A stretch of 43,565 bases of DNA from a virus: positions 1-43,565 of IMG/VR virus record IMGVR_UViG_3300012002_000135. The stretch is one strand, 5' to 3'. Below are positions 2,532-34,154 of this stretch, in pieces. The first letter of the stretch is position 1. Every line of letters begins with the position of its first letter. The position numbers and the translations under genes were made by a program. The notes under the pieces were generated by a model. That model was not told where the DNA came from and made no database searches. It saw only the letters and a list, made by a program, of their open reading frames with translations.

Positions 2532-2567
2532 GACTGAGACAATGCCAGAAGTACGGACAGTTGTCAA
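2532..2567 (-). promoter_or_regulatory. Promoter for the DUF6011 gene (TTGACA/CCGTAC class)
   Basis: TTGACA at 2562-2567, five bases, CCGTAC, a TG, then CATTGT as a weak -10 after a 17-nt spacer, and 7 nt to the ATG. The TGA in the -35 box is the stop codon of the upstream gene. Confidence 0.6.
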
Positions 2568-2887
2568 GACCCTTTTCTCATCAGGCTTCCGTCCTCCTCG
2601 AATCGGACCAGCTCCTCGTTGACCAAGTGGACAACGAGGGCGTGCGTCAGCTCCTGGTTGAGCCCGGACAGGTGGACCAGGTCAGGGTAGTAAATGTCCA
2701 CCCGCGGCGCCGACGGAAACGGGATGTAAGAGAGTAGCCTTGTCGCATGTGCCAAGAACGATTTCTGCCACTCCTTGTCGACCTGCGCCGGTTCCCCTGT
2801 CAGAGGGCACCTACCTTTCGGGTCGGTGTAGGAGTACACCCATCGGTTGTCTTCCGGGCACCGAACTCTGTACTGTGTGTGGATCAC
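2564..2887 (-). CDS. Hypothetical protein
   Basis: About 107 residues starting VIHTQYRVRCPEDNRWVYSY. The GTG chosen overlaps the TGA of the 48-residue upstream gene as GTGA; a GTG 15 nt further up is also open. The first part has a CPED...C pattern that could be half of a zinc knuckle. The rest is soluble and mixed alpha/beta (VDIYYPDLVHLSGLNQELTHALVVHL). No family recognised. Its stop lies inside the next gene's -35 box. Confidence 0.55.
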   Translation of the reverse strand: MIHTQYRVRCPEDNRWVYSYTDPKGRCPLTGEPAQVDKEWQKSFLAHATRLLSYIPFPSAPRVDIYYPDLVHLSGLNQELTHALVVHLVNEELVRFEEDGSLMRKGS

Positions 2888-3030
2888 GTGTCGAACTCCC
2901 ACTCCGGCGAGTAGACGCCCATCCGGATCTCCATTTCAAGGGCTTCGCGGTCTTCTTCAGACATTTCGCGGACGAGAGACTTCAAGACGTTGCGAAGCTC
3001 TTCTTTGTCCAGTTCGTCAATCACTTTCAT
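2884..3030 (-). CDS. Small acidic helical protein (48 aa)
   Basis: MKVIDELDKEELRNVLKSLV begins a 48-residue, strongly charged, predicted helical protein. Its ATG overlaps the TGA stop of the GHKL-zincin gene (ATGA), and its own stop overlaps the following start. Translational coupling on both sides makes it a real gene, probably working with its neighbours. No family recognised. Confidence 0.6.
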   Translation of the reverse strand: MKVIDELDKEELRNVLKSLVREMSEEDREALEMEIRMGVYSPEWEFDT

Positions 3031-4346
3031 CGCAGCAGACCAAGGATGATTCGACTTGCCAACTCTTCGATGCCTCGGCGATGCTCTACCGACCCGTCGC
3101 CTCCGTAAATGTGCGCCGCTTCGTGGATCAGCGTCGCCCACAATTCCTGAGGGTCACCGAGCAGACGGCGCGCGACGCAGATTTGCGACTCACCTTCAGC
3201 CGTCACGTGATGGGTCCCATCCACGGTGTCAGACACGAACTCGACCACTGCGATGTTGACTTTCTGGTCACAGTGCTTCGAGAGCAGGCGACTGCTGCGC
3301 AAAATGAGGTCGACTTGCTCAGTCGTAAGCTCGTCGGGCTGGACGTGTCGCTTGACCGACAACCCACGGTCTTGCATGCGCGCTTCGAAGGCACCGAGTT
3401 GTTGCTCCAGCAGTACTTTTTGTCCTTCGGATACCATGACGCTCTTCAGACCATGCTGACGCGCCATGACCGCTTGCTCCATGTCCACGCAAGGCACAGC
3501 CTCTTCACCGTGTTCTCGGCTGAAATCCGCCGCCAGGTCTTGGGCAACTCCAGACACGACGAAAGAGTACTCCCGCAACGCCTTGCCCTCACCCGAGTTC
3601 GAGCGGAACAGCTCGATGATGTCAGAGACTTCGACGAGTTTGCGCGTCCGCGCAGACTCGACTGCGGATGCCACAGCGTAGCGAAGCGACCACGGGTCGG
3701 CCATCTTTCGGTCGCGGTCAAGGCTCACCGAGTGCAGGTCATAGCCCCAGCGGTAGTTGTCGGGGAGGTTGCCCACAAACAGACCGCGCACGTAGAGCTT
3801 CCCCGCATATTTTTCATCCCGGAAGATGTATCCGTTCTGAACAGGCAACACCTCACCCCGAGGCTTGCGGAGCATCAAGCAGTTGTTTTGGACCGCTTCC
3901 CAGTCGTTGGGATGCACGTTGTCGATGATCCATTTGACGCTGCCTTCGGTCGTTCGGGGGCGAATATTCAATTTGAGCAAGTCGGCACCGCCGAACTTAT
4001 GGCTGGGCTCGATGCTAGGCGTCCAAGACTCAGTGCGCGTGTGGACACGGACTCTCATCCCAGCTCTGCAGAGCACCATCATGGCGAGCTTGTACCCTTC
4101 GCCGAACTGACCGCGTTGCGCTTCGTCGTGCGCTTTGGATGTGACGCCGAGCAGCAGCGTGTCGCGGGTGATGTCCCCGGCGGTCGACTCGATGATCAGC
4201 GAGTGGCCTTTGGTGTATTTCACGCGGACGTCGCCGCCGTTCTTGTCTGCCGCGTCGTACGCGTTCTGGAGAAGCTCTCGGATAGCCTCCCACGGTCCCC
4301 AGCCGCGCACGTAGTCAGAAGAGATGGTGAGTTCGAGCGTTGTCAT
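3027..4346 (-). CDS. GHKL ATPase fused to a C-terminal zincin-type metalloprotease domain
   Basis: This 439-residue protein has an N-terminal Bergerat-fold ATPase. E24 and N28 lie in AIRELLQNAYDAA (N-box), and the lid motif RGQFGEGYKLAMMV is at ~78-91. The DxGxG motif is degenerate (ESTAGD). The C-terminus carries LIHEAAH with H408, E409 and H412, and H422 (SVEH) as a plausible third ligand, i.e. a zincin active site. The middle (~130-390) is unassigned. The arrangement suggests an ATP-driven conformational switch coupled to proteolysis, which is inferred. The start is fixed by a strong promoter ending 1 nt before the ATG; an upstream in-frame codon lies inside the promoter. A second GHKL ATPase is encoded 1.1 kb upstream. 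Confidence 0.8.
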   Translation of the reverse strand: MTTLELTISSDYVRGWGPWEAIRELLQNAYDAADKNGGDVRVKYTKGHSLIIESTAGDITRDTLLLGVTSKAHDEAQRGQFGEGYKLAMMVLCRAGMRVRVHTRTESWTPSIEPSHKFGGADLLKLNIRPRTTEGSVKWIIDNVHPNDWEAVQNNCLMLRKPRGEVLPVQNGYIFRDEKYAGKLYVRGLFVGNLPDNYRWGYDLHSVSLDRDRKMADPWSLRYAVASAVESARTRKLVEVSDIIELFRSNSGEGKALREYSFVVSGVAQDLAADFSREHGEEAVPCVDMEQAVMARQHGLKSVMVSEGQKVLLEQQLGAFEARMQDRGLSVKRHVQPDELTTEQVDLILRSSRLLSKHCDQKVNIAVVEFVSDTVDGTHHVTAEGESQICVARRLLGDPQELWATLIHEAAHIYGGDGSVEHRRGIEELASRIILGLLR

Positions 4347-4380
4347 GCGTCTACTATACAGCATTCCGGGCGGATGTCAA
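4347..4380 (-). promoter_or_regulatory. Promoter for the GHKL-zincin gene (TTGACA/CCGGAA, TATAGT)
   Basis: TTGACA at 4375-4380, five bases, CCGGAA, then TATAGT as a near-consensus -10 and six bases to the ATG. It is the best -10 of the set, and the predicted transcript starts at about the ATG. The upstream gene's stop (TAG) lies inside the -10 box. Confidence 0.75.
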
Positions 4381-4686
4381 GGCCCGAACTCGGTATTGGT
4401 CCACAAGGACCTCGTAGACGACCATTTGCTTCGCGCGGACGAGCGTCCTCGCCGCGGGACCTGGAAGACCGTCGATCGTCGTCTCCCACCCACCGTTTTC
4501 GGCTCGGAACGCGCGCACTTGTACCCGTGCGGACCTGCCGCAGGGCGCGTCACGGATGACGTGCGCTAGATAAGACCCGTCTTCCGCCCGATTAAACTTC
4601 GGGACTGGCGTGTGAGCGTAGACGCGGTCCGGAGCTACAAAAGGAAGGATACGGGCGTCGAGTACGTTGTTGCGGTCTGGAGTCAT
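4354..4686 (-). CDS. Hypothetical protein
   Basis: About 110 residues starting MTPDRNNVLDARILPFV. It is soluble, with a central beta-rich stretch (RVQVRAFRAENGGWETTIDGLPG) and a final VYEVLVDQYRVRAL. The second of two ATGs spaced 6 nt apart is chosen because it lies 29 nt after the -35 box. It overlaps the promoter of the GHKL-zincin gene at its 3' end, so the two are transcribed in tandem. No family recognised. Confidence 0.6.
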   Translation of the reverse strand: MTPDRNNVLDARILPFVAPDRVYAHTPVPKFNRAEDGSYLAHVIRDAPCGRSARVQVRAFRAENGGWETTIDGLPGPAARTLVRAKQMVVYEVLVDQYRVRALTSARNAV

Positions 4687-4721
4687 AGTCATTGACTAGC
4701 GCAAATCCGGACACGTGTCAA
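4687..4721 (-). promoter_or_regulatory. Promoter (TTGACA/CCGGAT class)
   Basis: TTGACA at 4716-4721, five bases (CGTGT), CCGGAT, a 17-nt spacer to TAGTCA, then ATGACTATG. The TGA inside TTGACA ends the upstream Cys-rich gene. Confidence 0.6.
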
Positions 4722-5035
4722 GTCCCACTGGGGGTCCCGCTGGGGGTGGGGCGTCCGTTGACTCCAACCCACGCTGCGCTATTGCGCTGGAACACGTTGA
4801 GTTGACGTGCAGTGGGAGCAGGCTGCCATTGCGGACAGTTTGTCACGCCGGCAACGTCCGTCCCACGGGCCTTGATCGCTTCGGGGTCCGTACAGCGCCA
4901 GTCTGTCGTGCTGCGAACCGCCACACACTTGGCGCAGTCTCTGCACGACCGCCTTTTCTTGTCCGGGTATCCGGTCTTCACAAATACTCGCACAGGAGGG
5001 AAGAGTATGCACAAAGCAAGCCAGAAATCAACCAC
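4718..5035 (-). CDS. Cys-rich small protein with possible N-terminal membrane segment
   Basis: About 105 residues from a GTG. A hydrophobic start (VDFWLALCILFPPV) could be a membrane anchor. Then comes CRDCAKC, a later WRC and TNCPQW, a spacing suited to metal binding. A downstream GTG would give a shorter soluble form. The C-terminal GRPTPSGTPSGT comes from a small GGGGGT-type repeat. Its TGA lies in the next gene's TTGACA box, which supports the reading frame. No family recognised. Confidence 0.45.
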   Translation of the reverse strand: MVDFWLALCILFPPVRVFVKTGYPDKKRRSCRDCAKCVAVRSTTDWRCTDPEAIKARGTDVAGVTNCPQWQPAPTARQLNVFQRNSAAWVGVNGRPTPSGTPSGT

Positions 5036-5089
5036 ATGTAAGGGTACAACCCGCGTCGCGCTACTTCCAACTTCGACGTAGAGTTAAAA

Positions 5090-5308
5090 GTGTCCTCTAC
5101 TCCTCCGGTCTCCACCGAGACCCTGGCACTCACATTGGTCGGAAAGACGCTCGAAGACGCGATGTACTCCGCGTTCGCGATGGACCTGACGGTCATCGTC
5201 CGGGCTGAAGGCCGGCATACGTGGCCTGCCCCCACGCACTACGCCGAGGGTCGAGTCCAGCTGTTCGCGGACGCAAAAGGAATCGTCTTTAAGGTCCTCT
5301 GCGAGTGA
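5090..5308 (+). CDS. Peptidase inhibitor I78-like small protein
   Basis: This 72-residue protein has the layout of the I78 family: LVGKTLEDA at ~16-24, a central beta stretch (TVIVRAEGR), and a C-terminal GRVQLFADAKGIVFKVLC ending in Cys-Glu. I78 proteins are small serine-protease inhibitors of the potato-inhibitor-I type fold. The likely start is GTG with TAGAGT five bases upstream, so it may be leaderless. It runs against the flow of surrounding genes, close to two metalloprotease genes, so it could protect phage proteins or block a host protease. The assignment rests on pattern resemblance only. Confidence 0.5.
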   Translation: MSSTPPVSTETLALTLVGKTLEDAMYSAFAMDLTVIVRAEGRHTWPAPTHYAEGRVQLFADAKGIVFKVLCE

Positions 5309-5405
5309 TCAGGCGAGCGGTGTCGCACGTTCCTTTGTCGTGAGCGAGCGCGGTAAGCGCTAGGGTGTCGCGGCGCGCAAAAGCGTCCCCTTGCAGCTTA
5401 TCGAA

Positions 5406-5440
5406 CTGAGCGTAGAACTCAGCCCGCTAAGCTGGCGGGC
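5406..5440. terminator. Two adjoining hairpins between convergent genes
   Basis: CTGAG/CTCAG (5406-5422, loop of 7) is followed at once by GCCCGC/GCGGGC (5422-5440, loop TAAGCTG). They lie between the I78-like gene and the convergent end of the large GHKL gene, where a bidirectional terminator is expected. No T-run follows on either strand. The rest of 5309-5459 shows nothing else. Confidence 0.4.
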
Positions 5441-5459
5441 GTAATAGGACTGGAGCCCC

Positions 5460-12924: not shown

Positions 12925-13592
12925 TGACAGCGTGGGTCGTCGCTGCTTATCTTCAGCGCAATCCGGTCTGCAGTTACGGGCACCCTTTTACGCCCGTAAA
13001 CTTCCGACCCGTCCGCGCTACGCTGCATGCCTTTCGCTTCGACGATGAACACTCCGCGGTTTGCGTCGGCGCGAACGACGGTGCCGTGCTGCCCAGGCTC
13101 CACGCCGTCAGTCTCTGTCAAGAAAACGACACGGTCTCCGTGCTGGACCTGGTCGTAGTCCATCTGCCCGAAATGCTGCATGTCATCGTAGTACGATATC
13201 CTGCCTCCAACTTTTCGGCAGGACCCCGGTTCGTACTTCTTGGTGCCGGGCACGCGCTCGTAGCCGTCCCAGCACGGGTCGTCCGAGCCCTCCTTATTCG
13301 AGGAGGCGCGTTCGGACGCCCAAGACTTTCCCGAGTCACCGCCCCAAAGAAGCCAGGCGACATAGCCTGCGTCTTCGTACGGCTCTTTGCCCTCGGGCAC
13401 CTTCTGGTTGCCGTCGTGACGACTGAAAAACGAGTGCATCTTGTTGACCTCTTCCTGGGTCAGCTCGGTCCCGTTGATCAGCTTGGTGGCCATCCCAAGG
13501 CCTACGGACGTTCCGCCTTTGCCTCCGTTGCGCTCACGGTATTCTTTGCCACGCTTGGCGTTGTTCCTCATGGATTCGGTCGGCTTGTACAT
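12921..13592 (-). CDS. Conserved phage protein with 'NNAKRG...SFFSRH...LLWGGDSGKSWA' domain
   Basis: The 223-residue protein starts MYKPTESMRNNAKRGKEYRE and continues to GGTSVGLGMA, MHSFFSRH and AWLLWGGDSGKSWA. I recognise this as a short domain that recurs in phage proteins, often with XkdF-like or structural partners, but its function is unknown to me. The second half (~150-215) is a beta-rich segment (GDRVVFL...GTVVRADANRGVFIVEA) that looks like an SH3/KOW barrel. AGAGGA lies just before the start, and TGATG couples it to the PARG gene. Confidence 0.65.
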   Translation of the reverse strand: MYKPTESMRNNAKRGKEYRERNGGKGGTSVGLGMATKLINGTELTQEEVNKMHSFFSRHDGNQKVPEGKEPYEDAGYVAWLLWGGDSGKSWASERASSNKEGSDDPCWDGYERVPGTKKYEPGSCRKVGGRISYYDDMQHFGQMDYDQVQHGDRVVFLTETDGVEPGQHGTVVRADANRGVFIVEAKGMQRSADGSEVYGRKRVPVTADRIALKISSDDPRCH

Positions 13593-14161
13593 CAGGTCCT
13601 CTGTGTGGTGAGACAGTCTCGGAAGTGCCGGTCAGGACACGCGAACACCACGTTCGCACTCGACTCCTGCACTGCAGCACGTTGAATGTGAGCGACCATC
13701 TGAGGGTCGTTCTTGAAATGTCCGCATCCCCAGGCGCCCAATACGATTGGCTTGGGCGCCTCGGCTTCGGCGATTTCTAGTAATTTCTGGACCCGACGCC
13801 TGACCGCAGACGAAACCACAGACCGGTCTGCGTAAAAGTACTTAGCCTGCGGCGCCGAGCACAGCACCGCGTCAAACCGGTGTCCGGTTTTCAACTTGAG
13901 GTCGCGCAGATGCAGGACCTCGTCCGTGTTCAGGGGGCCTGCAGCTTCGCCTGCCCGGTAAAAGAGGCGCACTTCAGGGTCGCTGGATTCCAGACGCAGT
14001 CCAAGGTCTGACGCTCGGCACAAGTCTTCTTCTTGTCCTTTGACGCCCGAACGCCACCCGCCGCCTGGCGTTCGGGCCGACGCGAAGACGTGCACCAGCG
14101 GGTGGTCCAGGTTGGCGATGGCGTCCTGAACTGCCCAAGATGTTACGAGGAAACGGGTCAT
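13592..14161 (-). CDS. PARG-like ADP-ribose hydrolase (TIGR02452/bacterial PARG type)
   Basis: This 189-residue macro-domain-type hydrolase has the PARG signature GGG-x7-QEE: G33-G35 and Q43-E45 in ASARTPGGGW..., followed by DLCRAS. Later VLGAWGCGHFKNDPQMVA matches the second conserved loop of TIGR02452 proteins. Bacterial-type PARGs remove ADP-ribose from proteins or nucleic acids, with E44/E45 catalytic. It is shorter than many members, so the N-terminal cap is reduced. Its ATG overlaps the TGA of the 1943-residue polyvalent protein, whose C-terminus looks like an ADP-ribosyltransferase. This is a likely writer/eraser or counter-defence pair (inferred). Confidence 0.8.
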   Translation of the reverse strand: MTRFLVTSWAVQDAIANLDHPLVHVFASARTPGGGWRSGVKGQEEDLCRASDLGLRLESSDPEVRLFYRAGEAAGPLNTDEVLHLRDLKLKTGHRFDAVLCSAPQAKYFYADRSVVSSAVRRRVQKLLEIAEAEAPKPIVLGAWGCGHFKNDPQMVAHIQRAAVQESSANVVFACPDRHFRDCLTTQRT

Positions 14162-17100
14162 ATTTCAGCCTCGATGAACGGGCCCACGATGATCTCTTCC
14201 ATGCGTTCGGGACTCATCTCCTCCGAAGCGCGCCGTGGATTCACAAGCGCCACGCGCTGGTAATCGGTTGCGTGAGGATTGTCTTTACCAAACGGGGTTT
14301 CTGTCACATCGACCGGGTAGAACACGGCCACCGCGTTGGGCAGAGCCGACTTCGAGTTGTAGAACCCGAAGTATCCCAGGTCTTTCATGGCCTGATACAT
14401 CCCGCCGCGTCCGTCTTGCTTGAAGCCTTCTTTGACCTCCTGAGGAGCGCCCTGTCCGAGGTCGAGCAGATTGTCCGGGATCTCTGCTTCGTACCGAGCC
14501 TTGGACCGCTGAACGACCATCTGCTCGGGCTCGGTGCCTTCCAAGTAAAAGAACGTGACTGGCACGCGTGTGTCCTGCGACTCACGCCGAGACAACGCGT
14601 TCGAGCCGACCATCTTGGGGTCGAGCGTCGTCAATCCAGGCTGGCGACTGTAGTGCACCACCCGAGCCGCGGTCTTTCGCTTTGCCTTTCGGGCCTGAGA
14701 AGGCTTAGGCTTGACCTGACGCCACACCGACCAAGTGATCGCTTGGACTTCCTGCGGTTGAAGACCGTATTCCCGGGCCACCTGGTTGTACGCAGCTTCG
14801 ACTTGCTGTCGTTCCGAAAGACTCAGCGACGCCATGTTAGTCACCGGAGCGTTGTATTCGCCGCGGTAGATGTTGATCGCGTGTCCGTCGAGGACGATGT
14901 CGCGCCGCGTGCCTTGCGGGTCAACCATCGACTCGTAGAACACAGTGACTTTCGGTCCGCTGACCCCCGCATTCGGGTTGCCCGTATCGATGATACGCAG
15001 CGCTTTCTTGATGTTCGAGGAGTAGCTCGGGATTCCTCTAAACGGGTACTTGGCGTTCACCTTTGCGATCTCTGCGTTGACCTCTGCCGCGGCGTCTTCG
15101 AGTTGCGGACGGTAACGCTTGCGTACTTTCTCCATCGACTTCGACGCGCGGTTCATGATGGCGTCGCGCCGTCGCTTGGGAAGGTCGCTGGTCTTCTCAA
15201 CGCCCAGCTGCGCTTTTAGCTCGTTGAGTTCCTCCGTGCGTTGGTCTCGGATTTCGGCGATGGCTGTATCCATCTCTGCGCGAATTGGAGCTAAAATCTC
15301 CTCCCGACGCTGCTTCAGCTCAGAAGCTTCTTCCTCCCGGTTCGCGATTTGCTCTCGGTAGTACTCGGGGTTCAGTAACAGGTTTTCTGCAGCGTCGATG
15401 TTGATTTCCCACCTCAGATTCGGGCTCAGCGCTGCGATAACGCCCGCTACGACGTCGAGCGGCATTCCGAGGTTGTCTGCGAGTTCCGACGCTTCTTCGT
15501 GCGCGACATCGTACCAGTTCGCCCAGTAGTCGACTTCTTCGGGTGTCGCCAGGTCAAGAATGGCGCGGATGTTATCTGCGCCTGCCTTGTGCAGGTCAGG
15601 CGCGTCACGCTCCGGCGCTCGGACTTCTTGCCCGGCAGGCGCAGGAGCTTCTTCGGCGCCCGGGTCATCCCCAACCAGGTCGTCGGGCACTTGCGGGTCA
15701 GGAGCGTCGTCGTAAGCTAGCGGGTCCGGCTCAGGGTCAGAATAGAACTGCGCCCAGCGCTGCCCGAACTCGGCGACGGTCCACGCGAAGGGCTTGACGA
15801 TGGACGATGCGCGTCCCACGCGGACTTGCCGCCACCATCGGACCGCGGCAGCTGCAGCAAGTCGTTGTGCGCGCGACGCTGTTCTTCTTGCCGCCGCCTT
15901 CGCGCTCGCCGGCGGCGCTTCTTCAATCTGTTCACGGGTCAGGGGTCCTTTTTCTGGAGTCCAGTCGACTGCAGGCGATTCAGGTCCAAAGCGGAAGTCC
16001 AAGTTGAACGTGTGCGACCGCGACCCCGAGGTCAAGTCGTCACCGGTACTGGTCTGAACCCCCTGTCCGCCTGGGCTTGGGCTCGCCTCGACCCAGTCCT
16101 CGCCGTACATGGCCGTCGCGCCGTCTTCGCTTTTGAAAATGATCGAGTCCTGCCCATACTTCTTACGCAGGTCTTGGGCCTGCGCAAAGCTGAGACCGCG
16201 GACCATGACTGCGCCTTCCGCGACCTCTTTGCCGGTCTCTTCTTCAGTGTAGCGTCCGCGCAAAAACCGGATGTCTGACTGCTTGACTCCCATTTCGTGG
16301 ATGTCACGAAGTAGCTGCTGCATCCGTCGCTTGTTTTTGCGAAGCGACATCTTTTGGTTCGTTTCAGGGTCAACCTGCCGATACGGACTGATGAACGTGA
16401 CCGTGTCCTGGTCGCTCATCCATTTTTGCACGTCCTGTGGCGACATCGGCGACCGCGGAATCGCGATGTGCTTCATCGCGTAACGTAGAACCAGCGCTGC
16501 CTCGTCTTTGTTTTGCAGGTCGTACCCGGCAGTTCGGACTTGACGGGCGACCATGGAAGCCACCCGGTCCAAGTCGCCCCGAGGGTTTGCATCGCTCAAC
16601 GCCTGGATAATGTTGCCTGCAGCCGTGTCCAAAAGCTCAGGGTACCGACGTTCTACGTGGATACTTCCATGCCGCGACTGCTGGACACGCTGAATGAACG
16701 TGGAGAGGTCGGGAGCCGCCCGGTAATCGACAATGTGGTTCTGCAGGATTTGCGCGGCGGGCGCCTGAAAGTGCTGAGCTACCGCCTCTGCGTCGTCGAT
16801 GGAGTACGCGTCCATCACTTCTCGCCCGACGTTCAACCGGTGCCAGCGAGCCGCTTCTTCGAGCGGCATCCCCTCGGGGAAGTCTCTCACGTTGAGTCCG
16901 TGGTCGCGGAAATTCCGCCAGCGTTCCCAGTTCGACGCCACCGTCTCAACCTCACGATTTTTTACGTGAGCGGGGAAGGTGCTTTCGTGCTGACCCTTGA
17001 ACAGCTCAGGCGGCGCCGCTTTCAAGTACCGCGCGACTACGTCCGGGTCGACATCAGACCACGCAAACCCGACCACTTCACTGGGAGGCTTTCCCGCGCG

Positions 17101-19989: not shown

Positions 19990-20312
19990 CTATCGTCGTC
20001 CTCCGTCACGTTGACCAACTCGGGTCCCGCGTCGAACAGCCCTCGGCGCTTCGCGTTGACCACACGCATCGCGCGCTTCGAAAAGTCGTTCGCTTCCGGA
20101 GTCTCGAACGTGTACATCCCCGGTACGAAGGACTCGACTTGGTCTTTTGCATGCAAAACAGCCAGTTCGAGCGTCCGCCCCTGACCGACCACAGTCCCGA
20201 GCGATGATGGTGTTTCGACTTCGACGGTGAACCAGTTGTCCCAGGTCGCTGCGGACCACCGGTCCCACCAGACGTCGCCTGGACCGGTCGTATCGATCAT
20301 CATGAGCTTCAT
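19866..20312 (-). CDS. HicB-like small protein
   Basis: 148 residues starting MKLMMIDTTGPGDVWWDRW. Two segments follow the HicB pattern: FTVEVETPSSLGTVVGQGRTLELAVLHA at ~28-55, and better FSMLPELTFSGRTLEEAERKA near the C-terminus. HicB antitoxins carry PDLPG..T.GdTleEA. No DNA-binding tail is seen. It sits directly upstream of, and overlaps, the polyvalent gene that begins with a HicA-like domain. A HicAB-derived pair is inferred, not proven. The ATG is fixed by a TTGACG box 30 nt upstream. Confidence 0.5.
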   Translation of the reverse strand: MKLMMIDTTGPGDVWWDRWSAATWDNWFTVEVETPSSLGTVVGQGRTLELAVLHAKDQVESFVPGMYTFETPEANDFSKRAMRVVNAKRRGLFDAGPELVNVTEDDDRCHTTAFSMLPELTFSGRTLEEAERKASMFLGRDSVTSKRT

Positions 20313-20348
20313 GCGACGCATATTGACGTATAACCGTACTGACGTCAA
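20313..20348 (-). promoter_or_regulatory. Promoter for the HicB-like/polyvalent unit (TTGACG class)
   Basis: TTGACG at 20343-20348, TCAGT, ACGGTT, 17-nt spacer to CAATAT, seven bases to ATG. The TGA stop of the flavodoxin polyvalent gene lies inside TTGACG. Confidence 0.5.
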
Positions 20349-23077
20349 TCATTGTTGAGATACTCCGCCAAACGGCTCACGGTGTCTGTGGCAACCTGAA
20401 GCATCCCGTCCACGCCCGCGTCGTTTGCCTCTGCATATCCGAGGCCAACGTTGATGTTCAGGCCTTGAACCAGGTCTCCAGGGACGAAAACGCCGGAGTA
20501 CCGCAGTTGGTTCACCAACGGGAAAACAGCCAGCTTCGGGTCCCGGAGCACGTCCTCTTCGGGGTCGTAGGAGGGAGGGTAATTCCCATCATCATATTCG
20601 TCGGCGCCGTCGTCGCCGTGCACCAAGAACGCCGCATACCGACCTTTGAGATGGTTCCGCAGGAGGTGGTCGTAAGCGCCGGACTTCGAGGCTTCGCGGG
20701 TCTTCTCCGGGTCTTTGATTTTCCCGTCAAAGATTTCGATGGCCTCCTCGGTGGTCACGGTCAGGTTTGCACAGACCAGCCGGTCGAACATCGCCTTCAT
20801 TTGGGTGGATGCTGCGCCCCAGTGCACAGGCGTCACGAACACCATCCCCGCGCAGGCTTCGAGCTTCGCGTACACGTCCTGTTCGTACATCAAGTCTTTT
20901 AGGTCCTCCGCCGCAGACCCCGGCCCGAAGCAGCTGCAGTTATGCACCGGTACACCCTCTACGATAAATTCATGACTGTCTTCGACGGTCAGGTCGTATA
21001 CGTCAGCTGTACCCGCAGGAATGATTTCAACGACCTTACCCCAAGGCGCAGGCCAATTCGCCTGGCGCGACTGCGCAAGCACCGATAACCCTATGACGTC
21101 GCGGAAACGCGCTACGTCGCGCTTAATGACCGCCCGAGGTGTTGTAGTTCCGTCTCCGCGGTAAACGAACGACCGGATTCCTAGGCGCTGCAGGAGGATT
21201 TGTGCGTCGCGAAGGCAGTCGAATGATTTGCTGTAAAGCGTCACAGACGCGCGGTGGCACACAGAGCCAGCTGTAGCGAACCATCCGCGAAGGAACGCAA
21301 TCACTTCAGCTTTCGAAGCATCGCGCATCGTTTCAACAGGGACGCGGTCCGACTCCCACGTACCGTTTCCGAATGCGAGGCCCTCCATCAAAGCTAGTTT
21401 GACGTCCTCGTCAGCTCGGACAGGAAACGCGATTTCTTCGCGCGGGAACGGCACGCGCATTCCGGGTTTGAGGTCGCTTACCGGAACCCATTCGTCTCCG
21501 TACACCCTGCCTGAAGCGTTGCGCTTTACGACAGACCGTACACGCACAGGATGGTTGGCGGTAGCGCGCAAAACACGCCCGTCGCTTAAGACCAGGTCGA
21601 AGACTTCCGCGTTCGATTTCGTTTTCCAGGCCCGCGTCACGCGTCCCGTCGTAAGCTGGTCCCCTTCTCGTACCTCTTCAATAGGCAGGAGACCCCGAGT
21701 CGTCGCGACTCGCTGACCCTCTGCGATGCACGGCCAGTGGCAATGGAGCGAGGACGTCGACACGCACCCCTTGCATGGCCTGACGATGTCATCAGCGTCA
21801 TGTACCGCCAAATCGATGACGTCTACGTTGAATGCGAGCCGGTTCGTGAGGACCTCTTCAACGTGTTTGACGATGTCTACAGTCTTGCCGTCCTGACCTG
21901 GGCAGGATTGGGCGGACCGTGGACTGCCCTGGACTACCACAATGCGTGGGCGGGTCTGGGCTTTGCGCCGTGTTATCTTAACTAAGGGGCTCGCAGGTGT
22001 GCGGCGGGCAGTCCGTCCGGGCTTAGCGTAGTAGACGTAGCCGATTTGACCCTTGGCGTCCGGAAGGCCCCAGATTTCAGACTTGGTGTGCCCGCCGTCG
22101 AGTTTGTCACCTTCGTACAGGGGGACCTTCAGCAGGCCCGTAGCGCGGTCTTCGCGGCGTTCGTGCCAGCCCAACAAACCAAGCCCTCGATGTCGGAAGT
22201 TGAGCAGGGGCAGGACGCACTCGAAGTAAGCCTCCCGCGTGTACACGTCGAAACGTCCGAGCATCTCGTCGGGCCACAACTTCAGGAAGGCGGCAATCGG
22301 GTCGTCGAACCCCGCAATCGTCTTGAACTGGTACGTGGCGCCTGTGCGGGCGTCCAGCTGCTCGACAACCGTGACCGTTGGGTCTCGGCGCCACTCAGGT
22401 CCGAGGAGAAGGTCCACAGAGTCGCCGTCCATGGCGAGGGTGTTTTTGAGGTAACCGTACCAGCCTGGACATTCACGGTCTTCAGGGCCTCGGAGTTCGC
22501 CAGGGAAATGTTCGATGCAGAAGCAATGGTCGCCGAACGGCATCGACCCACGGGCCGGACCGTCTCCGACCAAGCGCCCTGCCCGGTGCCGAAATCCCCA
22601 TTTGCGCCGGTCCGGAGCCTGTTTGTTGAACCAGTCTTCCTTCCGGAACTTCAGCATGGTCCGGACGCGGAGGGTGTCCGGGTCCGGTTGCCCGAGCACG
22701 AAAAGCGGCTGGCCTGCAGGGAGTCGCCCTGCAGGCGTTTCGAGTCCCTCTTTGGGCACCTTCAGCTTGGCGCCCGTAGGGGGATTCAGGTTGTTGGAGT
22801 CTATCAGGACACCGAAGGCGACAAAGATCAGGTCTTCTTCGACCCCTTTGACCACTCCGTCGATGCCGTCTGGAACGACGATGGGGTCTTTCAGCGGACG
22901 ACGATTTGCGTCTTGTACCGCCACTGCGCCTGATTGGTTCGCCCCGGCAGCCACCACCACGTCGCCCACGTTGAACGCAGACGGCTGAGGGTCTGGCGCA
23001 CCGCGCTCGGGCGGAGAAGGCAGCGTAGGCTGGTCGTCAGGCGTCTTTGGACGAGTCCACGGCATCGGTGGCCTCAC
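20345..23077 (-). CDS. Polyvalent protein: PPase-like domain plus flavodoxin/NADPH-FMN reductase, interrupted by an intein
   Basis: The precursor has 910 residues. Residues 1-180 are Pro-rich then beta-rich and unassigned. ~183-290 resembles the pyrophosphatase-like domain of polyvalent proteins (GYLKNTLAMDGDSVDLLLGP, VTVVEQLDARTG). ~377-449 starts a flavodoxin-like fold (RIVVVQGSPRSAQ phosphate loop, then CKGC). It resumes at 714 with CSCFG and VFVTPVHWGAASTQMKAMFDR, the family signature for NAD(P)H-dependent FMN reductases. The intein (C450-N713) splits the Cys-rich loop. Probable start is GTG overlapping the previous TGA (GTGA); an ATG four codons later is possible. It is probably virion-delivered; its redox role in the host is inferred. 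Confidence 0.75.
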   Translation of the reverse strand: MRPPMPWTRPKTPDDQPTLPSPPERGAPDPQPSAFNVGDVVVAAGANQSGAVAVQDANRRPLKDPIVVPDGIDGVVKGVEEDLIFVAFGVLIDSNNLNPPTGAKLKVPKEGLETPAGRLPAGQPLFVLGQPDPDTLRVRTMLKFRKEDWFNKQAPDRRKWGFRHRAGRLVGDGPARGSMPFGDHCFCIEHFPGELRGPEDRECPGWYGYLKNTLAMDGDSVDLLLGPEWRRDPTVTVVEQLDARTGATYQFKTIAGFDDPIAAFLKLWPDEMLGRFDVYTREAYFECVLPLLNFRHRGLGLLGWHERREDRATGLLKVPLYEGDKLDGGHTKSEIWGLPDAKGQIGYVYYAKPGRTARRTPASPLVKITRRKAQTRPRIVVVQGSPRSAQSCPGQDGKTVDIVKHVEEVLTNRLAFNVDVIDLAVHDADDIVRPCKGCVSTSSLHCHWPCIAEGQRVATTRGLLPIEEVREGDQLTTGRVTRAWKTKSNAEVFDLVLSDGRVLRATANHPVRVRSVVKRNASGRVYGDEWVPVSDLKPGMRVPFPREEIAFPVRADEDVKLALMEGLAFGNGTWESDRVPVETMRDASKAEVIAFLRGWFATAGSVCHRASVTLYSKSFDCLRDAQILLQRLGIRSFVYRGDGTTTPRAVIKRDVARFRDVIGLSVLAQSRQANWPAPWGKVVEIIPAGTADVYDLTVEDSHEFIVEGVPVHNCSCFGPGSAAEDLKDLMYEQDVYAKLEACAGMVFVTPVHWGAASTQMKAMFDRLVCANLTVTTEEAIEIFDGKIKDPEKTREASKSGAYDHLLRNHLKGRYAAFLVHGDDGADEYDDGNYPPSYDPEEDVLRDPKLAVFPLVNQLRYSGVFVPGDLVQGLNINVGLGYAEANDAGVDGMLQVATDTVSRLAEYLNND
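20939..21730 (-). other. Intein in the flavodoxin domain (264 residues)
   Basis: Residues 450-713 form an intein. Block A starts at C450 (CIAEGQRVATTRGLLPIEEV), block B is ATANHP, block F is VYDLTVEDSHEFIVEG, and it ends VPVHN before +1 Cys714. Between them are two LAGLIDADG-like helices, ALMEGLAFGNG and FLRGWFATAGS. The usual catalytic Asp of each is replaced (Asn and Ala), so splicing is probably intact but homing is probably dead. Confidence 0.85.
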
Positions 23078-24001: not shown

Positions 24002-24424
24002 ATGAACGAGCGACTCGAAATCCGAATGAGTCCGGAAGAAAAGAAAGCCGCGCGGGAACTCGCAGCGGCAGACGGCTACCGAGGTCGACATTTTTCGGTT
24101 TGGGCCAGAGCGAAACTGACGGGCCAAGAACCCGACCCGCCTGTAGGGGGCGAAGACTCTCCGTATCTTACCGTGTCTGAGGCCGCTGAGGTCCTGCAGT
24201 GCAGCCGGCAGACTATCTACGCATGCATTCGCCGAGGTCACATCGTCGACGTCGTTACCTCTCCGCGCACTGCGATCCCACGCAAAAACTTTATTGCGCT
24301 GAGAGACGCAACCAACGAAGTTCGAGAAGATGCCCAAAAAGGACTGGTTACTGTGTGGGCGATGGACGACGAAAAAGACGTATGCTCGGGCGTCGTGCTT
24401 CTTGGAGAGCTAATGACTCGCTGA
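24002..24424 (+). CDS. Excisionase/MerR-like HTH DNA-binding protein
   Basis: This 140-residue protein has YLTVSEAAEVLQCSRQTIYA at ~57-76 and RRGHIVDVV...IPR, the helix-turn-helix of Xis/MerR-like 'helix_turn_helix_17' proteins. The N-terminus (LEIRMSPEEKKAARELAA) looks like a ribbon-helix-helix or mobilisation-type motif. It is the only clear transcription regulator in the window and is transcribed against its neighbours from a divergent promoter region, so it may control the flanking leftward genes or the shared promoter motif. Its last 15 nt overlap the convergent ThyX gene. Confidence 0.75.
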   Translation: MNERLEIRMSPEEKKAARELAAADGYRGRHFSVWARAKLTGQEPDPPVGGEDSPYLTVSEAAEVLQCSRQTIYACIRRGHIVDVVTSPRTAIPRKNFIALRDATNEVREDAQKGLVTVWAMDDEKDVCSGVVLLGELMTR

Positions 24425-26542: not shown

Positions 26543-26580
26543 CGTGTCCGGACGATATGCAGGAGCCGTGCCCGGCGGCG

Positions 26581-29191: not shown

Positions 29192-29239
29192 GTACCGTGC
29201 CGGTGACGCTCCGACCCGTAGGCAGAGCGACCGACCTGC

Positions 29240-29710
29240 TCACGTGTGGTGTGTAACGATTCTGAACTCTTCGTTGAGTACGTCCGCGGGGAGGACGTAG
29301 CAGTCGGGCCCGCCGACCTCTCTGAGTCGGACGCGCTGGTCGTTTTCGACGGACACGACTTCCAGGACGCGGCGTCCTGCTTCGTCGTCGGCTCGGACTC
29401 GGGACACCCAAAGCTGTCCAGGAGCGGGCCGAACAGACTCTGCGTGTCGACGAAGTCGGTCTCCGAGCAGGTCTTCAATCCTTGCGATCCGGTCAAGGAT
29501 TGCAAGGAGCGTAGCCTCTCCTGTACGGTTACGCTCCCACGGCCATCGTCGTCCAGTGCGTTTCCGGTAATCGACGGCTCTTCGCCGAAGTGTGGTCCCC
29601 GAAACGCCGTACTCGGCTCCAAGGGTTGTCCAGTCGCACGGCGCAGGAAAGGATTGGTAACCTTCCAATATCTTCCAGAGTTCGTCATATGCTTTGTCGT
29701 CCCATTTCAT
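29240..29710 (-). CDS. HTH-containing protein with C-terminal beta domain
   Basis: This 156-residue protein has an N-terminal homeodomain-like helix-turn-helix (TTLGAEYGVSGTTLRRRA at ~28-45), a basic helix, then helix IARIEDLLGDRLRRHAES. The C-terminal beta segment (LWVSRVRADDEAG..VLEVVSVENDQRVRLREV) is like a small SH3/PUA-type barrel. It overlaps the methylase stop (ATGA). It may be a transcription regulator or a specificity partner of the methylase. Confidence 0.6.
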   Translation of the reverse strand: MKWDDKAYDELWKILEGYQSFPAPCDWTTLGAEYGVSGTTLRRRAVDYRKRTGRRWPWERNRTGEATLLAILDRIARIEDLLGDRLRRHAESVRPAPGQLWVSRVRADDEAGRRVLEVVSVENDQRVRLREVGGPDCYVLPADVLNEEFRIVTHHT

Positions 29711-30519
29711 GGCGCGCCCTTGCCTACGTACACAAATTCCATAATTGGTCGCCTCTTTGCGGCCCGTGCAGCCATGGTCTGCCGAGCAGGAAAAGAATAG
29801 ATTTCCGCGTCCGGCCAGTGGCTTTTAACCATCTGTCCGTACTCGTAGTTGCCGACATTCGAGAGCACCACGTGCGCTCCGCGTTGATGCGCCCCTGCGC
29901 AGCACTTCAACAGGTCCTTGTGGTCTTCGTCTGAGAACCCCTGCCGTGTGTAAGACGCGAACTCGCCCCGGTACGGAGGGTCCGCGTAGACAACATCGCC
30001 TTCATCGATCTGCCCGAACGCGTCCCGAAAGTCTCGGTGCCGGATTTGAGCACCCTGTAACGATTCATGCCAACCACTGAAGTCAGGAACTGACATCTTT
30101 TCGTACTTACCCCAAGGAACGTTGAACCGTCCCGCCTGCGAGACCCGCCACAGGCCATTGAACGAAGACTGACGCAAAAAGATGTGCAGCGCCGCGCGGG
30201 GTTGCGCGTTGTACTCGTCCCGCATACGGAGGTAGAACTTCCCTTTGTCTTCAGACCCGTTGTACCTCTCGACCAATGCTTCTAAGTCCTGTTGGAGCGC
30301 GTCGACGTCGTTTTGGATAGACAGCATGGCCATGGTCGTGTGAGGGCAGGAATCGCTCAACGCCCACAGAGAGGCCTTGTCGCCGCGGGCACGCAGCGAC
30401 CTGTACACCGCGGCTCCGCCCATGAACGGCTCGAAGTACCGGCGCCCTGTGACGTCAGGGATCCGACCTGCAATATGCGCGGCAACGCGCGACTTGCTTC
30501 CGACTATTTTGAATGACAC
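29707..30519 (-). CDS. Second D12-class DNA adenine methyltransferase
   Basis: This 270-residue Dam-family enzyme has KSRVAAHIAGRI (motif X), FEPFMGGAAVYR at 29-40 (motif I) and DPPY at 180-183 (motif IV). RQSSFNGLWRVSQAG..NVPWGKYE is the target-recognition region seen in phage Dam proteins. The start is GTG with GAGGA six bases upstream, overlapping the previous gene by 16 nt; a longer upstream frame is rejected. It is more Dam-like than the 246-residue methylase, so it probably methylates a short palindrome. Confidence 0.85.
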   Translation of the reverse strand: MSFKIVGSKSRVAAHIAGRIPDVTGRRYFEPFMGGAAVYRSLRARGDKASLWALSDSCPHTTMAMLSIQNDVDALQQDLEALVERYNGSEDKGKFYLRMRDEYNAQPRAALHIFLRQSSFNGLWRVSQAGRFNVPWGKYEKMSVPDFSGWHESLQGAQIRHRDFRDAFGQIDEGDVVYADPPYRGEFASYTRQGFSDEDHKDLLKCCAGAHQRGAHVVLSNVGNYEYGQMVKSHWPDAEIYSFPARQTMAARAAKRRPIMEFVYVGKGAP

Positions 30520-30818
30520 GACGCTTCCTCGGTCTCGATAAACGTGGGAGAGCGTGCGCACTCTAAAATTTGGTAGATTTCGTTTTTCAGCTCGTCAATC
30601 TTGGACGCGTGGTACTCGGCCTGCTTCAACTGCCGAGCGGCGAATGCCGTTAAAGACGACACCGCCTCCTCTTTCGTATGCCCCCAAATCGAATAAGCTT
30701 CCGGAAGCCCGACACCGTCATTGAACACTACGGCATTCGATGTGATGTTTTCTTCGGGTACGTCAGCGCGGATGAACGTCCGCGCTGACGGGGCCCACAC
30801 CCAAACCAACTTGTTCAC
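30504..30818 (-). CDS. Hypothetical protein (104 aa)
   Basis: It starts (GTG) NKLVWVWAPSARTFIRADVP. A beta N-terminus is followed by YSIWGHTKEEAVSSLTAFAARQL and a coiled helix (AEYHASKIDELKNEIYQIL). GTGA overlap with the previous stop fixes the start. A perfect 11-bp stem (GTCAGCGCGGA) lies inside its coding start. No family recognised. Confidence 0.55.
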   Translation of the reverse strand: MNKLVWVWAPSARTFIRADVPEENITSNAVVFNDGVGLPEAYSIWGHTKEEAVSSLTAFAARQLKQAEYHASKIDELKNEIYQILECARSPTFIETEEASCHSK

Positions 30819-31117: not shown

Positions 31118-31286
31118 TCGATTTCACCTTTCGAACAGTCAAAACGCAGACGTCGAGGTCCACGTTGTGAGTCACAGAAACAACCACAAAAAGGTCCGTT
31201 CCTCGTTGGATGTATTCGCCTTCGGCGACTGACACCGTCGTATTCAGCTCGCTTTCGAGTTCTCCTCGAACTTCGTATTTTGTCAT
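31110..31286 (-). CDS. Small beta protein (58 aa)
   Basis: MTKYEVRGELESELNTTVSV begins a 58-residue protein. The ATG overlaps the TGA of the RecD-like helicase (ATGA), and its TAA overlaps the next ATG. Strands YEVRGELESEL, LFVVVSVTH and DVCVLTVRKV suggest a compact beta fold. No family recognised. Confidence 0.6.
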   Translation of the reverse strand: MTKYEVRGELESELNTTVSVAEGEYIQRGTDLFVVVSVTHNVDLDVCVLTVRKVKSNG

Positions 31287-32617
31287 GCTGCCTCCAGCCG
31301 GGCCTGAAGCTTGGTCCGGCGATTTAAGCCACGCTCGTTCGAGGCGGCGGTGTGAAGCATTTTCTCTTGCCCTACAAGAAGGATGCCGTCCACGGCCCGG
31401 GTGACGGCCGTGTATAGGAGCTGGCGAGTCAACATGAACTCGTTCGCTTCGTGGACAGGAGTCACCACGTAGTCAAACTGAGACCCCTGAGACTTGTGGA
31501 TGGTGATTGCGTACCCGAGGTCCAGTTCGAAAACGTCCAGCTTGCGGTACAAGACCACCCGGTCTCCGTAGTCGACCGCCATCACGTACTGCCCATCGAT
31601 TGAAACATCGGGGGACAGTCGGGCTTCGAATCGTGCGGGGTTGATTCCTTTGAAGTCGGCGTCGAGCACGACGCCGATCTCACCGTTGGCCACTGCGATC
31701 TCATAGTTATTCTTCGTGTGAATGACACGGTCGCCCACGTGAAGGCGATAATCGGCACTTCCGCACTTCATCCCTTCATCTTTGTAGATGCGCGGGTTCA
31801 GCTTCCTTTGCAGGTCGCGGTTGAGTCGCTCCGCGCCAATATCGCCGACTTTCTGCGGGCAGAGCACCTGAACACCTGCGGGGTCTTTCGCGTTGACAAC
31901 CGCAGCCACGATGACCTGCGCCACGTGCTCGGCGTCTTCCTGTACCGAAAAACCCACTCCGCCCTCTTTCAGCTTCAGTTCCGTGACCGGTGTGTCAATG
32001 CGTCCGTCGCGGACCTCCTGCGCGATGTAGGGGATGCGGGACTCCTCTGCTTGGCGAAAGATTTGGGTCAGGCGAACCACCGGCACGCGCCCCGAATCGA
32101 TGAGGTCGCGAAGAACCTGGCCTGCGCCGATAGAAGGGAGCTGGTCCACGTCGCCCACCATGACCAGGCGCTGGGAAGGCGTCAGAGCGCGCATGACGCT
32201 CATCATCAACTCCGTGTCGATCATCGACACTTCGTCGAGCACGATGACGTCATGAGGCAAGGGGCCGCCGATGCGCTTTCCATCGGGCAGCTCCACGACC
32301 TCTTGCGTGGCGTCGTAGGTCCAGCCGTCAGGCGTCCACCCCAGGAGACGGTGAATGGTGGTCGCGTTCTCGCCGGTTTGCTCCCGCATCCGGATGGCTG
32401 CTTTGCCAGTCGGGGCGGCTAGTGCCACGTCCAATCCGTTCGACTTGAGCATCTGGACGATGCTGTTGGTGGTAAAGGTCTTGCCGGTGCCGGGGCCTCC
32501 GGTCAGGACCATGACGCGGTTCTTGGCGGCTGTCTCGACAGCCGCTCGCTGCGCGTCAGCGGGCGGACGGGCGGGGTCGAAAAGGTTGTCGGGGATGACC
32601 AGTTCGGCGCTTGCCAT
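31283..32617 (-). CDS. RecD2-type SF1B helicase motor (C-terminal half)
   Basis: This 444-residue helicase has Walker A GGPGTGKT at 40-47, VIVLDEVSMIDTELM (Walker B), MVGDVDQLPSIGAGQ (motif III), LTQIFRQAEES (motif IV), and AITIHKSQGSQFDYVV with YTAVTRAV (motifs V/VI). This is the RecD/RecD2/Dda family, 5'-3' DNA helicases. The N-terminal RecD2 domains are missing here and are encoded by the separate gene at 33148-34116. The ATG MASAELVIP is chosen by a TTGACA box 30 nt upstream. Confidence 0.85.
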   Translation of the reverse strand: MASAELVIPDNLFDPARPPADAQRAAVETAAKNRVMVLTGGPGTGKTFTTNSIVQMLKSNGLDVALAAPTGKAAIRMREQTGENATTIHRLLGWTPDGWTYDATQEVVELPDGKRIGGPLPHDVIVLDEVSMIDTELMMSVMRALTPSQRLVMVGDVDQLPSIGAGQVLRDLIDSGRVPVVRLTQIFRQAEESRIPYIAQEVRDGRIDTPVTELKLKEGGVGFSVQEDAEHVAQVIVAAVVNAKDPAGVQVLCPQKVGDIGAERLNRDLQRKLNPRIYKDEGMKCGSADYRLHVGDRVIHTKNNYEIAVANGEIGVVLDADFKGINPARFEARLSPDVSIDGQYVMAVDYGDRVVLYRKLDVFELDLGYAITIHKSQGSQFDYVVTPVHEANEFMLTRQLLYTAVTRAVDGILLVGQEKMLHTAASNERGLNRRTKLQARLEAA

Positions 32618-32653
32618 GAACAGGAGATTAACTCCGTTCCGGGCGGCTGTCAA
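32618..32653 (-). promoter_or_regulatory. Promoter for the RecD2 motor gene (TTGACA/CCGGAA, TAATCT)
   Basis: TTGACA at 32648-32653, GCCGC, CCGGAA, 17-nt spacer to TAATCT, seven bases to ATG. The upstream gene's TGA lies in the -35 box. Confidence 0.75.
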
Positions 32654-32844
32654 GGGACTTTTTCAAGGAGCCAAGCGCCAAAGCGAATTCCAGCGAACAC
32701 CGCCGCGGAGAGCATCAAACTCACGCCGATCACGATCCTCCAGTTGATTAGCTCATCACGGGGGACGTCCCGTGACGGTTCGAGCGTGTAGCTACACTCG
32801 ACATACTTCATTGGTTCGTGTTTGGGTTTGTGCGACTGTGTCAT
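32650..32844 (-). CDS. Small single-pass membrane protein (64 aa)
   Basis: This 64-residue protein has a polar N-terminus (MTQSHKPKHEPMKYVECSY) and one C-terminal membrane span (IVIGVSLMLSAAVFAGIRFGAWLL). It separates the two halves of RecD2. ATGA overlap with the upstream stop. Function unknown. Confidence 0.55.
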   Translation of the reverse strand: MTQSHKPKHEPMKYVECSYTLEPSRDVPRDELINWRIVIGVSLMLSAAVFAGIRFGAWLLEKVP

Positions 32845-33134
32845 AGCTTATCTTCCACAGCACGTACGAGCACTCGTACGAAATCAAGGGGTATCTTCAT
32901 TTCGACGTAGCCTGTCACGTGACCTGTCGATAGCACCTTGAGTGAGCCTAGCTCCACCTCGATTTCCGGGTTGACTTTCTGCAGCTTGCGCACAAGTCGT
33001 CCGTACTCTGCTGCAGCCTCGCTGTAGATTCGCGCCCACGACAAGGTCTCGTCGCGCGCAGGCAGCGGACCCAAGTCCGCTGTATCTGCGTCCCAACGCT
33101 CTTCTATCGGAAGAGTCGGCTCAGGAAGGTCCAT
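32841..33134 (-). CDS. Hypothetical protein (97 aa)
   Basis: MDLPEPTLPIEERWDADTAD starts a 97-residue acidic protein; helix IYSEAAAEYGRLVRKLQKV is followed by strands IEVELGSLKVLS and TGYVEMKIPLDF. The ATG lies 13 nt after the RecD2 N-terminal gene; the longer frame upstream overlaps that gene and is rejected. No family recognised. Confidence 0.55.
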   Translation of the reverse strand: MDLPEPTLPIEERWDADTADLGPLPARDETLSWARIYSEAAAEYGRLVRKLQKVNPEIEVELGSLKVLSTGHVTGYVEMKIPLDFVRVLVRAVEDKL

Positions 33135-33147
33135 GTCAGGCGTACAT

Positions 33148-34116
33148 TCATGCGGAAAGCATGCCAACCAGGCGCTCAGCGATACAACGCTCTGCGTCAC
33201 AAAGTGCGGCAAGAGAGTACAGGTTGTCTTCTTGTGCGATAAAGGGGCCTTCTGCGAGGCCTCGGACCAGCAAGTCTTCGGTCACTCTCATGTCTCGCAA
33301 CGTAGCTGCGTTGCGCCGTGTGTCCCTCACCTTACCCAAAATTTCGTCTGCGGTAACCCACGTGCACCCAAGGTCCTTGCAGGTTTTCTCCAAAAGGCAG
33401 ACTGCGGCTGCACCAATGCGTCGAGGGTCCGTGTCTTCGATGCCGAGATTTTGCGCTATGCCGTCGCAGACGCGGAACGGCGCTGCTTTCATGCCCACGT
33501 ATGGGTTGTCAGTGAGCACCGTCTTAGTGCGGTCGCCGAATGCGCGCATCAGCGGACCTACATACCGGGGCGGGACACCGGCAGACGCCAGGAATATCCA
33601 GCTGTCTCGAAGGGCGCTGTGCTCCGTCCACCATCTGGACACTTCGCGCGCCCGGTCTGCGGTGATACCCTCTACTGCGGTCAGACCTTCCGGGTTGTTG
33701 TCGAGCAAGTCCAAGACGCCTTCGAGCGACCCGGCCAGCTTGAAAATTTCTCGGGCCCGAAAGGCGCCGACCTGCGGCATTTGCTTCAGCAATGCGCGGA
33801 CGCTGCGCTCATCGCGGCGAGCGCAAACGCGCACATCCTTGACGTCGAGGGTGATACCCCACTTGTTGCGCTCGTAGCGCGTGAAGTGGACATCGAATAG
33901 GTCGCCCGCTTGCGGATAGACAGGGAATTGCCCCTTGATCCCAAAGTCGGACAATCGACGGAGCCACACCGGCACGTCCGCGTCTTGGTCCACGTCGAGG
34001 CGACACTTTGCGATGGCGAAGCCGCTGAACGCCCCCTTTGATTTGGGGAAATTCGTGCGCTGCACCTCGACCGTGACCGTCCCGGACTCTTCGGTAACCT
34101 GACCGCCGTTGCTCAT
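33148..34116 (-). CDS. RecD2 N-terminal domains as a separate gene
   Basis: The 322-residue protein matches the N-terminal part of RecD2. An OB-like start (TVTVEVQRTNFP...GFAIAKCRLD) is followed by helix-hairpin-helix repeats (LKQMPQVGAFRAREIFKLAG, LTAVEGITADRAREV). Then come DNPYVGMKAAPFRVCDGIAQ, RRIGAAAVCLLEKTC...CTWVTADEIL and YSLAALCDAERCIAERL, the pattern just before the helicase motor in RecD2. No Walker motif is present. With the motor gene downstream it forms a split RecD2. The ATG (MSNGGQV) is chosen by the TTGACA box; a GTG six codons up is also open. Confidence 0.75.
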   Translation of the reverse strand: MSNGGQVTEESGTVTVEVQRTNFPKSKGAFSGFAIAKCRLDVDQDADVPVWLRRLSDFGIKGQFPVYPQAGDLFDVHFTRYERNKWGITLDVKDVRVCARRDERSVRALLKQMPQVGAFRAREIFKLAGSLEGVLDLLDNNPEGLTAVEGITADRAREVSRWWTEHSALRDSWIFLASAGVPPRYVGPLMRAFGDRTKTVLTDNPYVGMKAAPFRVCDGIAQNLGIEDTDPRRIGAAAVCLLEKTCKDLGCTWVTADEILGKVRDTRRNAATLRDMRVTEDLLVRGLAEGPFIAQEDNLYSLAALCDAERCIAERLVGMLSA

Positions 34117-34154
34117 GTCCAAGTCTATTAGCACTTGTCCCGGACGGCTGTCAA
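34117..34154 (-). promoter_or_regulatory. Promoter for the RecD2 N-terminal gene (TTGACA/CCGGGA)
   Basis: TTGACA at 34149-34154, GCCGT, CCGGGA, 17-18-nt spacer to CTAATA/TAATAG, then ~9 nt to ATG. Confidence 0.65.

Follow-up and report, generated by a model that had tools for sequence, protein, structure and literature searches.

Candidate leaderless sigma-70-type promoters with an additional spacer block before ten leftward genes of a phage genome fragment

The middle promoters of phage T4 combine a MotA box with a -10 element, MotA replacing the -35, and the stoperators of mycobacteriophage L5 have a 13-bp consensus, GGTGGMTGTCAAG. Operators and stoperators of the L5 type in cluster A mycobacteriophages are asymmetric sites that lie in one orientation at gene junctions (PMC9283540, PMC6550527), and the SAS repeats of cluster K mycobacteriophages (GGGATAGGAGCCC) have a Shine-Dalgarno (SD)-like core, lie in one orientation and are kept before orthologous genes (PMC3203893). 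The middle and late transcripts of the Thermus phage phiYS40 are described as leaderless in work cited in PMC3594737. Here these systems are compared with a repeated element, TTGACA-N5-CCGGAA, that precedes ten leftward genes in IMGVR_UViG_3300012002_000135, a virus fragment of 43,565 bases with 58% G+C (the window, meaning the whole stretch analysed). Judged from its sequence, the element probably represents a family of sigma-70-type promoters that give leaderless transcripts and hold an additional recognition block in the spacer.

Like the T4 middle promoters, the window sites seem to pair a phage promoter with an extra block for protein binding, but they keep a perfect -35 and hold the block in the spacer. 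phiYS40 is likewise described as a large phage with many promoters giving leaderless transcripts, but it belongs to another phage lineage and probably has another host; we know of no TTGACA-N5-CCGGAA block in it. The SAS repeats share with the window sites a single orientation, a tie to start codons and retention before orthologues, but differ in their SD-like core, whereas the window sites stand 34-38 nt from the start and are promoter-like. The L5 stoperators share asymmetry, one orientation, placement at gene junctions and, in reverse complement, a TTGACA-like core; the window sites differ in a fixed ATG distance, an in-phase -10, a CCGGAA that lies outside the L5 consensus and the absence of a known repressor. 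By eye, the L5 consensus nearly matches two or three of the ten sites and not the remainder. The element would work like a phage promoter regulon and, by the features tested, appears to fall outside the stoperator and sigma-54 classes.

The ten sites had been picked by eye, on the TTGACA feature, in the original prediction, and all were located again upstream of the genes it named:

2532..2567, minus strand: cassette of gene 2097-2531 (DUF6011), TTGACA-N5-CCGTAC; -10 CATTGT, spacer 17, 7 nt to ATG
4347..4380, minus strand: cassette of gene 3027-4346 (HATPase-like), TTGACA-N5-CCGGAA; -10 TATAGT, spacer 16, 6 nt to ATG
4687..4721, minus strand: cassette of gene 4354-4686, TTGACA-N5-CCGGAT; -10 TAGTCA, 6 nt to ATG
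7527..7562, minus strand: cassette of gene 5460-7526 (HATPase-like), TTGACA-N5-CCGGAA; weak -10 TAAGGC/AAGGCT
8501..8536, minus strand: cassette of gene 8285-8500, TTGACA-N5-CCGGAC; poor -10 GAAGGT
12363..12397, minus strand: cassette of gene 11682-12362 (deoxynucleotide monophosphate kinase), TTGACA-N5-CCGAAG; poor -10
12887..12924, minus strand: cassette of gene 12350-12886, TTGACA-N5-CCGGAA; -10 TAGTAT, spacer 17, 9 nt to ATG
20313..20348, minus strand: marginal site of gene 19990-20312, TTGACG-N5-ACGGTT; -10 CAATAT, spacer 17, 7 nt to ATG
32618..32653, minus strand: cassette of gene 31283-32617 (RecD-like helicase), TTGACA-N5-CCGGAA; -10 TAATCT, spacer 17, 7 nt to ATG
34117..34154, minus strand: cassette of gene 33148-34116 (RecD2 HHH-domain protein), TTGACA-N5-CCGGGA; -10 TAATAG, spacer 18, 8 nt to ATG

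TTGAC is present in all ten sites (TTGACA in nine, TTGACG in one) and is followed, as predicted, by the block at a constant five bases in 10/10; 28-32 nt, most commonly 30 (5/10), separate the end of the hexamer from the ATG. CCG stands at +11 in nine sites, the exception being the site named after gene start 20312, which has ACG. Column counts give CTTGACA-N2-Y-G-Y-CCGGA with constant spacing, so that the block is best written NN-Y-G-Y-CCGGA. At two mismatches or fewer the window holds 19 matches to the motif against a shuffle mean of 4.3 (none of 100 shuffles as high, the largest reaching 10), and TTGACA with CCG at +11 (9/14) is the strongest fixed-distance pair among six-mers with at least six copies on one strand. 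Independently, a repeat finder returned four motif copies as the top-ranked direct-repeat family.

The CCG split and the -10 test described below serve as safeguards against selection by eye. TTGACA occurs 17 times in the window. CCG is present at +11 in every one of the nine copies that lie 34-38 nt before the ATG of an open reading frame (ORF) of 60 codons or more, and in none of the other eight (Fisher p = 4e-5). The exact TTGACA and CCG pairs all precede minus-strand ORF starts and none is gene-internal away from a start, which bears out the predicted enrichment before genes at a fixed spacing. In a full matrix, trained on the same ten sites that it ranks, these sites are the ten top positions of the window (at least 17.5 bits), followed at 14.7 bits by the reverse strand of a true site. 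Under leave-one-out scoring eight sites stay within the best 11, whereas 8500 falls to about 33rd and 20312 to about 66th, its score being reached by 66 positions. Nine sites are therefore solid and the tenth, 20312 (TTGACG, ACGGTT), is marginal, which qualifies the claim of a motif common to all ten.

The motif is limited to some of the leftward genes; many others have SD sequences or overlap the preceding gene. A plain screen for start-anchored five-mers is weak in the window, where TTGAC at -36 ranks fifth, and clear in both of the relatives described below. A possible eleventh, variant site lies at 11672-11707 on the minus strand, with TTGACT, CGGAC one base off the usual register and TAGGGT at spacer 17; it stands 35 nt upstream of a 57-aa ORF that begins with ATG. 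A palindromic operator was rejected, the block showing no dyad beyond CCGG, as was a tRNA or Rfam element. A repeated peptide was rejected too: ALTSAR, common to two upstream genes, is the motif in one frame, and the remaining sites fall in other reading frames or after the stop.

The -10 signal was examined by scoring sigma-70-like hexamers at spacers 12-23, where the mean score is highest at spacer 17. The best hexamer at spacers 16-18 averages 2.05 bits, compared with -4.4 at random places (0/20,000 resamples as high). It ends 5-9 nt 5' of the ATG, with A/T in 9/10 sites at -12 and likewise at -11, and transcription is therefore expected to begin close to the ATG. An accepted mark of leaderless genes in bacteria is a TANNNT placed some 12 nt upstream of the start (PMC3160421). 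The -10 boxes had been called often poor; they are degenerate, and four are poor singly, but as a group they lie clearly above chance. Pairing with the anti-SD sequence is weaker for the motif genes than for other window genes, whose starts were listed by hand (median -1.75 versus -5.6 kcal/mol, p = 0.025). The proposal of a shared promoter with leaderless starts thus gains support from the sequence statistics, the SD contrast and two syntenic relatives, whereas control of the ten genes by the motif is something we infer.

Several cassettes overlap the upstream reading frame, some of these upstream ORFs being short and putative. At six sites (2531, 4686, 8500, 12886, 20312 and 32617) the upstream ORF ends in frame on the TGA within TTGAC(A/G); this ORF is gene 20345-23077 at 20312 and a short frame of about 65-70 codons at 8500. 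At two further sites the upstream stop lies inside the -10 (TAG at 4346, TAA at 7526), and the cassette at 12363..12397 sits inside the 3' end of the upstream gene. The putative promoter would often fill the entire intergenic gap.

These features are probably best explained by short sigma-70-type promoters set directly between co-directional genes, in which TTGACA would be read by sigma region 4 and a degenerate TANNNT at spacer 17 +/- 1 by region 2, transcription beginning at the ATG or within a few nucleotides of it and giving leaderless mRNAs. The rigid spacer block, NNYGYCCGGA, would be the site for an additional factor, phage-encoded or from the host, acting as activator or repressor and uniting the motif genes into one regulon. 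Because the distance from the -35 to the block is constant, whereas the positions of the -10 and the ATG shift by a few bases, the -35 and the block may be read together, either by sigma and a second factor held in fixed register to it or by a single factor spanning both. Degenerate -10 boxes would fit a helper factor, and a repressor operator would fit equally well.

Two relatives share gene order with the window. Virus Rctr197k (KX853510, 197 kb), from a methane-oxidising bioreactor (PMC5099504), has the gene order of the window's right part, with proteins 23-40% identical, and IMGVR_UViG_3300032315_000774 (137 kb), found by a polA profile, has part of the same order. This right part encodes a RecD-like helicase, a RecD2-like HHH protein, an ATPase-position protein, a helicase, an exonuclease, an ATPase, an SSB-position protein and an intein-bearing DNA polymerase I-like protein. 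Because the order recurs in these records, the window is probably a piece of a phage of about 140-200 kb. No nearer relative emerged from a megablast search of the window's first 25 kb against phages, and viral or genome contigs scanned with proteins or profiles yielded none with shared gene order before the polA profile match.

Both relatives have blocks starting 28-32 nt before gene starts, at some of the same orthologous genes, but of different sequence (TGGCAY...) and without TTGACA; the window motif was not found in Rctr197k, nor the Rctr197k motif in the window. The Rctr197k repeat, TGGCAY-N6-TGCTATMAAGTGAG, occurs in 19 copies (for example KX853510.1 128621, 131039, 134242 and 15597) compared with none in the reversed sequence; most copies stand exactly 28 nt upstream of an ATG or GTG, and 14 of the motif-linked starts match the depositors' annotation. 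SD pairing of its motif genes is -4.1 kcal/mol compared with -9.7 in neighbouring genes (p = 1.6e-5, for sequence-sharing genes that are not fully independent). This motif is absent from the viral contigs scanned, and the word 'promoter' was not found in the text of the paper describing Rctr197k (PMC5099504). IMGVR_UViG_3300032315_000774 carries about 22 near-identical copies of TGGCAYGCGAAGTGAAG(T/A/G)AG, mostly 28-31 nt before starts, on the minus strand at 16-51 kb and the plus strand at 136-137 kb and without a recognisable -10.

Three genes carry the local block in more than one record. For recD, it stands at 32653 in the window and 15597 in Rctr197k, while in IMGVR_UViG_3300032315_000774 a block at 137137 lies at the contig end, at the point where recD would be expected next. 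The recD2-like gene has it at 34154 in the window, at 16538 (ATG 16506) in Rctr197k and at 136231 (ATG 136261) in IMGVR_UViG_3300032315_000774, and the DUF6011 gene at 2567 in the window and 141070 in Rctr197k. When the two DUF6011 proteins are both begun at the motif-defined ATG, residue 25 aligns to residue 25, and this ATG lies 98 codons inside the annotated Rctr197k gene. The start annotated for KX853510.1 140804-141559 thus looks wrong, the DUF6011 gene probably starting at 141098; that of 15603-16268 also looks wrong, the recD2-like gene probably starting at 16506, from which the frame breaks further on, before 16268. The deoxynucleotide monophosphate kinase gene has the motif in the window, yet its orthologues in both relatives have SD sequences. 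The likeness of the three systems is one of place and arrangement between very distant relatives with different sequences, and could be convergence.

The Rctr197k repeat fits the sigma-54 pattern GG-N10-GC (-24/-12), and an extended -10 fits equally; the IMGVR_UViG_3300032315_000774 blocks fit only the -24 half, the -12 half being GA instead of GC, for which reason a sigma-54 promoter was considered and rejected for the relatives' blocks. In a more speculative reading, the relatives' cassette may even be a leaderless sigma-54-like promoter. The window sites lack the sigma-54 pattern.

The protein proposed in the original prediction to bind the block is the following:

24002..24424, plus strand: HTH_17 (helix-turn-helix) protein

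It has no homologue in either relative, and autoregulation was rejected since no motif copy stands before 24002. Its proposed link to the motif gained no support, and it is a candidate only through being present in the window.

Some observations weigh against leaderless promoters with a spacer block. The individual -10 boxes are poor at 8500, 12362, 4686 and 7526; the SD contrast in the window reaches just p = 0.025, with hand-listed comparison starts, and motif genes 7526, 8500 and 32617 keep some purine-rich pairing (-5.9 to -8.8 kcal/mol). The relatives' blocks, having neither TTGACA nor likeness to CCGGAA, may be a different kind of element.

The sites could instead be ordinary host promoters, the host's main sigma factor or polymerase preferring a spacer with CCGGAA and no extra factor being involved. 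The -35, -10 and spacing are canonical for sigma-70. The strict consensus before ATG, searched in 84,980 species genomes, gave 36 single, taxonomically scattered matches compared with about 45 expected by chance (own estimate), and a similar scan of viruses gave 46 scattered matches; these matches are read as chance and make the host explanation rather unlikely. Exact CTTGACANNNGYCCGGAA before ATG revealed no regulon in the scanned species genomes, a strict pattern that would miss a degenerate host version. It is also unlikely that the promoters marked by the block belong to an alternative sigma factor, or to a polymerase modified by the phage, with no additional DNA-binding protein. The sister phages' blocks do have different -10-like parts, and the TGGCAYG of the relatives equals the -24 box of sigma-54 promoters, but searches of the three records, of which the window and IMGVR_UViG_3300032315_000774 are fragments, found neither a sigma-70 region 2 nor a sigma-54 DNA-binding domain nor an RNA polymerase beta subunit. 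A search for sigma-70 region 4 gave sub-threshold, HTH-like matches only, and one for single-subunit RNA polymerase carries no weight because its control gave no match. The roles originally suggested for the block (operator, activator site or phage-sigma feature) are all putative.

Two further explanations dispense with a promoter at the sites. Stoperator-like asymmetric repressor sites would stop elongation at gene junctions, TTGACA being merely part of an operator. The L5 consensus in reverse complement, CTTGACAKCCACC, resembles CTTGACA(G/T)CCGCC at 32653 and 4380, and asymmetry, a single orientation relative to transcription and short gene junctions are as in L5-type sites (PMC9283540). The tight 34-38 nt to the ATG, the weak SD pairing and a -10 signal that peaks at spacer 17 are, however, promoter-like, the best-conserved part, CCGGAA, lies outside the L5 consensus, and the proteins scanned in the window, which is a fragment, include no recognisable repressor or integrase, all of which makes this improbable. 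Least probable is an element acting in mRNA or translation, with transcription started elsewhere: start-anchored, single-orientation repeats recall the cluster K SAS (PMC3203893), and in IMGVR_UViG_3300032315_000774 the block is followed by purine-rich, SD-like letters, but the window repeat holds a perfect -35 and, at spacer 17, a -10, with the ATG at the expected transcription start.

Other features of the window were also recorded. Positions 14158-19989 encode one protein of 1943 aa; its C-terminal third (DUF7178) has matches at several separate places in both relatives. Positions 20345-23077 hold an intein with a LAGLIDADG domain inside a protein with InPase and FMN-reductase parts; an apparent intein start in DNA polymerase was read by eye at 41996-43565. 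A PARG-like macrodomain protein (13592-14161), two D12-class/phage-type DNA methyltransferases (7537-8277 and 29707-30561) and a peptidase M16 gene (327-1442) are present. G-rich repeats (GGGGGTTNNGGGGGTT) at 1-340, 34160-34520 and 37290-37310 give 10 matches at two mismatches or fewer compared with 0.4 expected, and a stretch around CATTGGTAAAAGCTTGCTATGGGGG is common to 34.4 kb and 0.25 kb of the window; these may represent G-quadruplexes, or else an element of an origin or of an end.

If the sites are indeed leaderless promoters with a spacer block, a regulon in uncultured phages would be readable from sequence alone, including start codons, transcription starts and co-regulated genes, and start annotations such as those in Rctr197k could be corrected. 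They would also show a promoter fitted into a gene junction, with the -35 doubling as a stop codon. A more speculative possibility, which we hold only tentatively, is that in a lineage of large phages selected genes are placed under minimal cassettes anchored at the start codon, and that a rapidly changing factor encoded by the phage reads their middle block, the block sequence being replaced in each lineage and its position before the same genes kept. Orthologous genes that keep a cassette while its recognition block changes completely would make the co-evolution of regulator and site testable.

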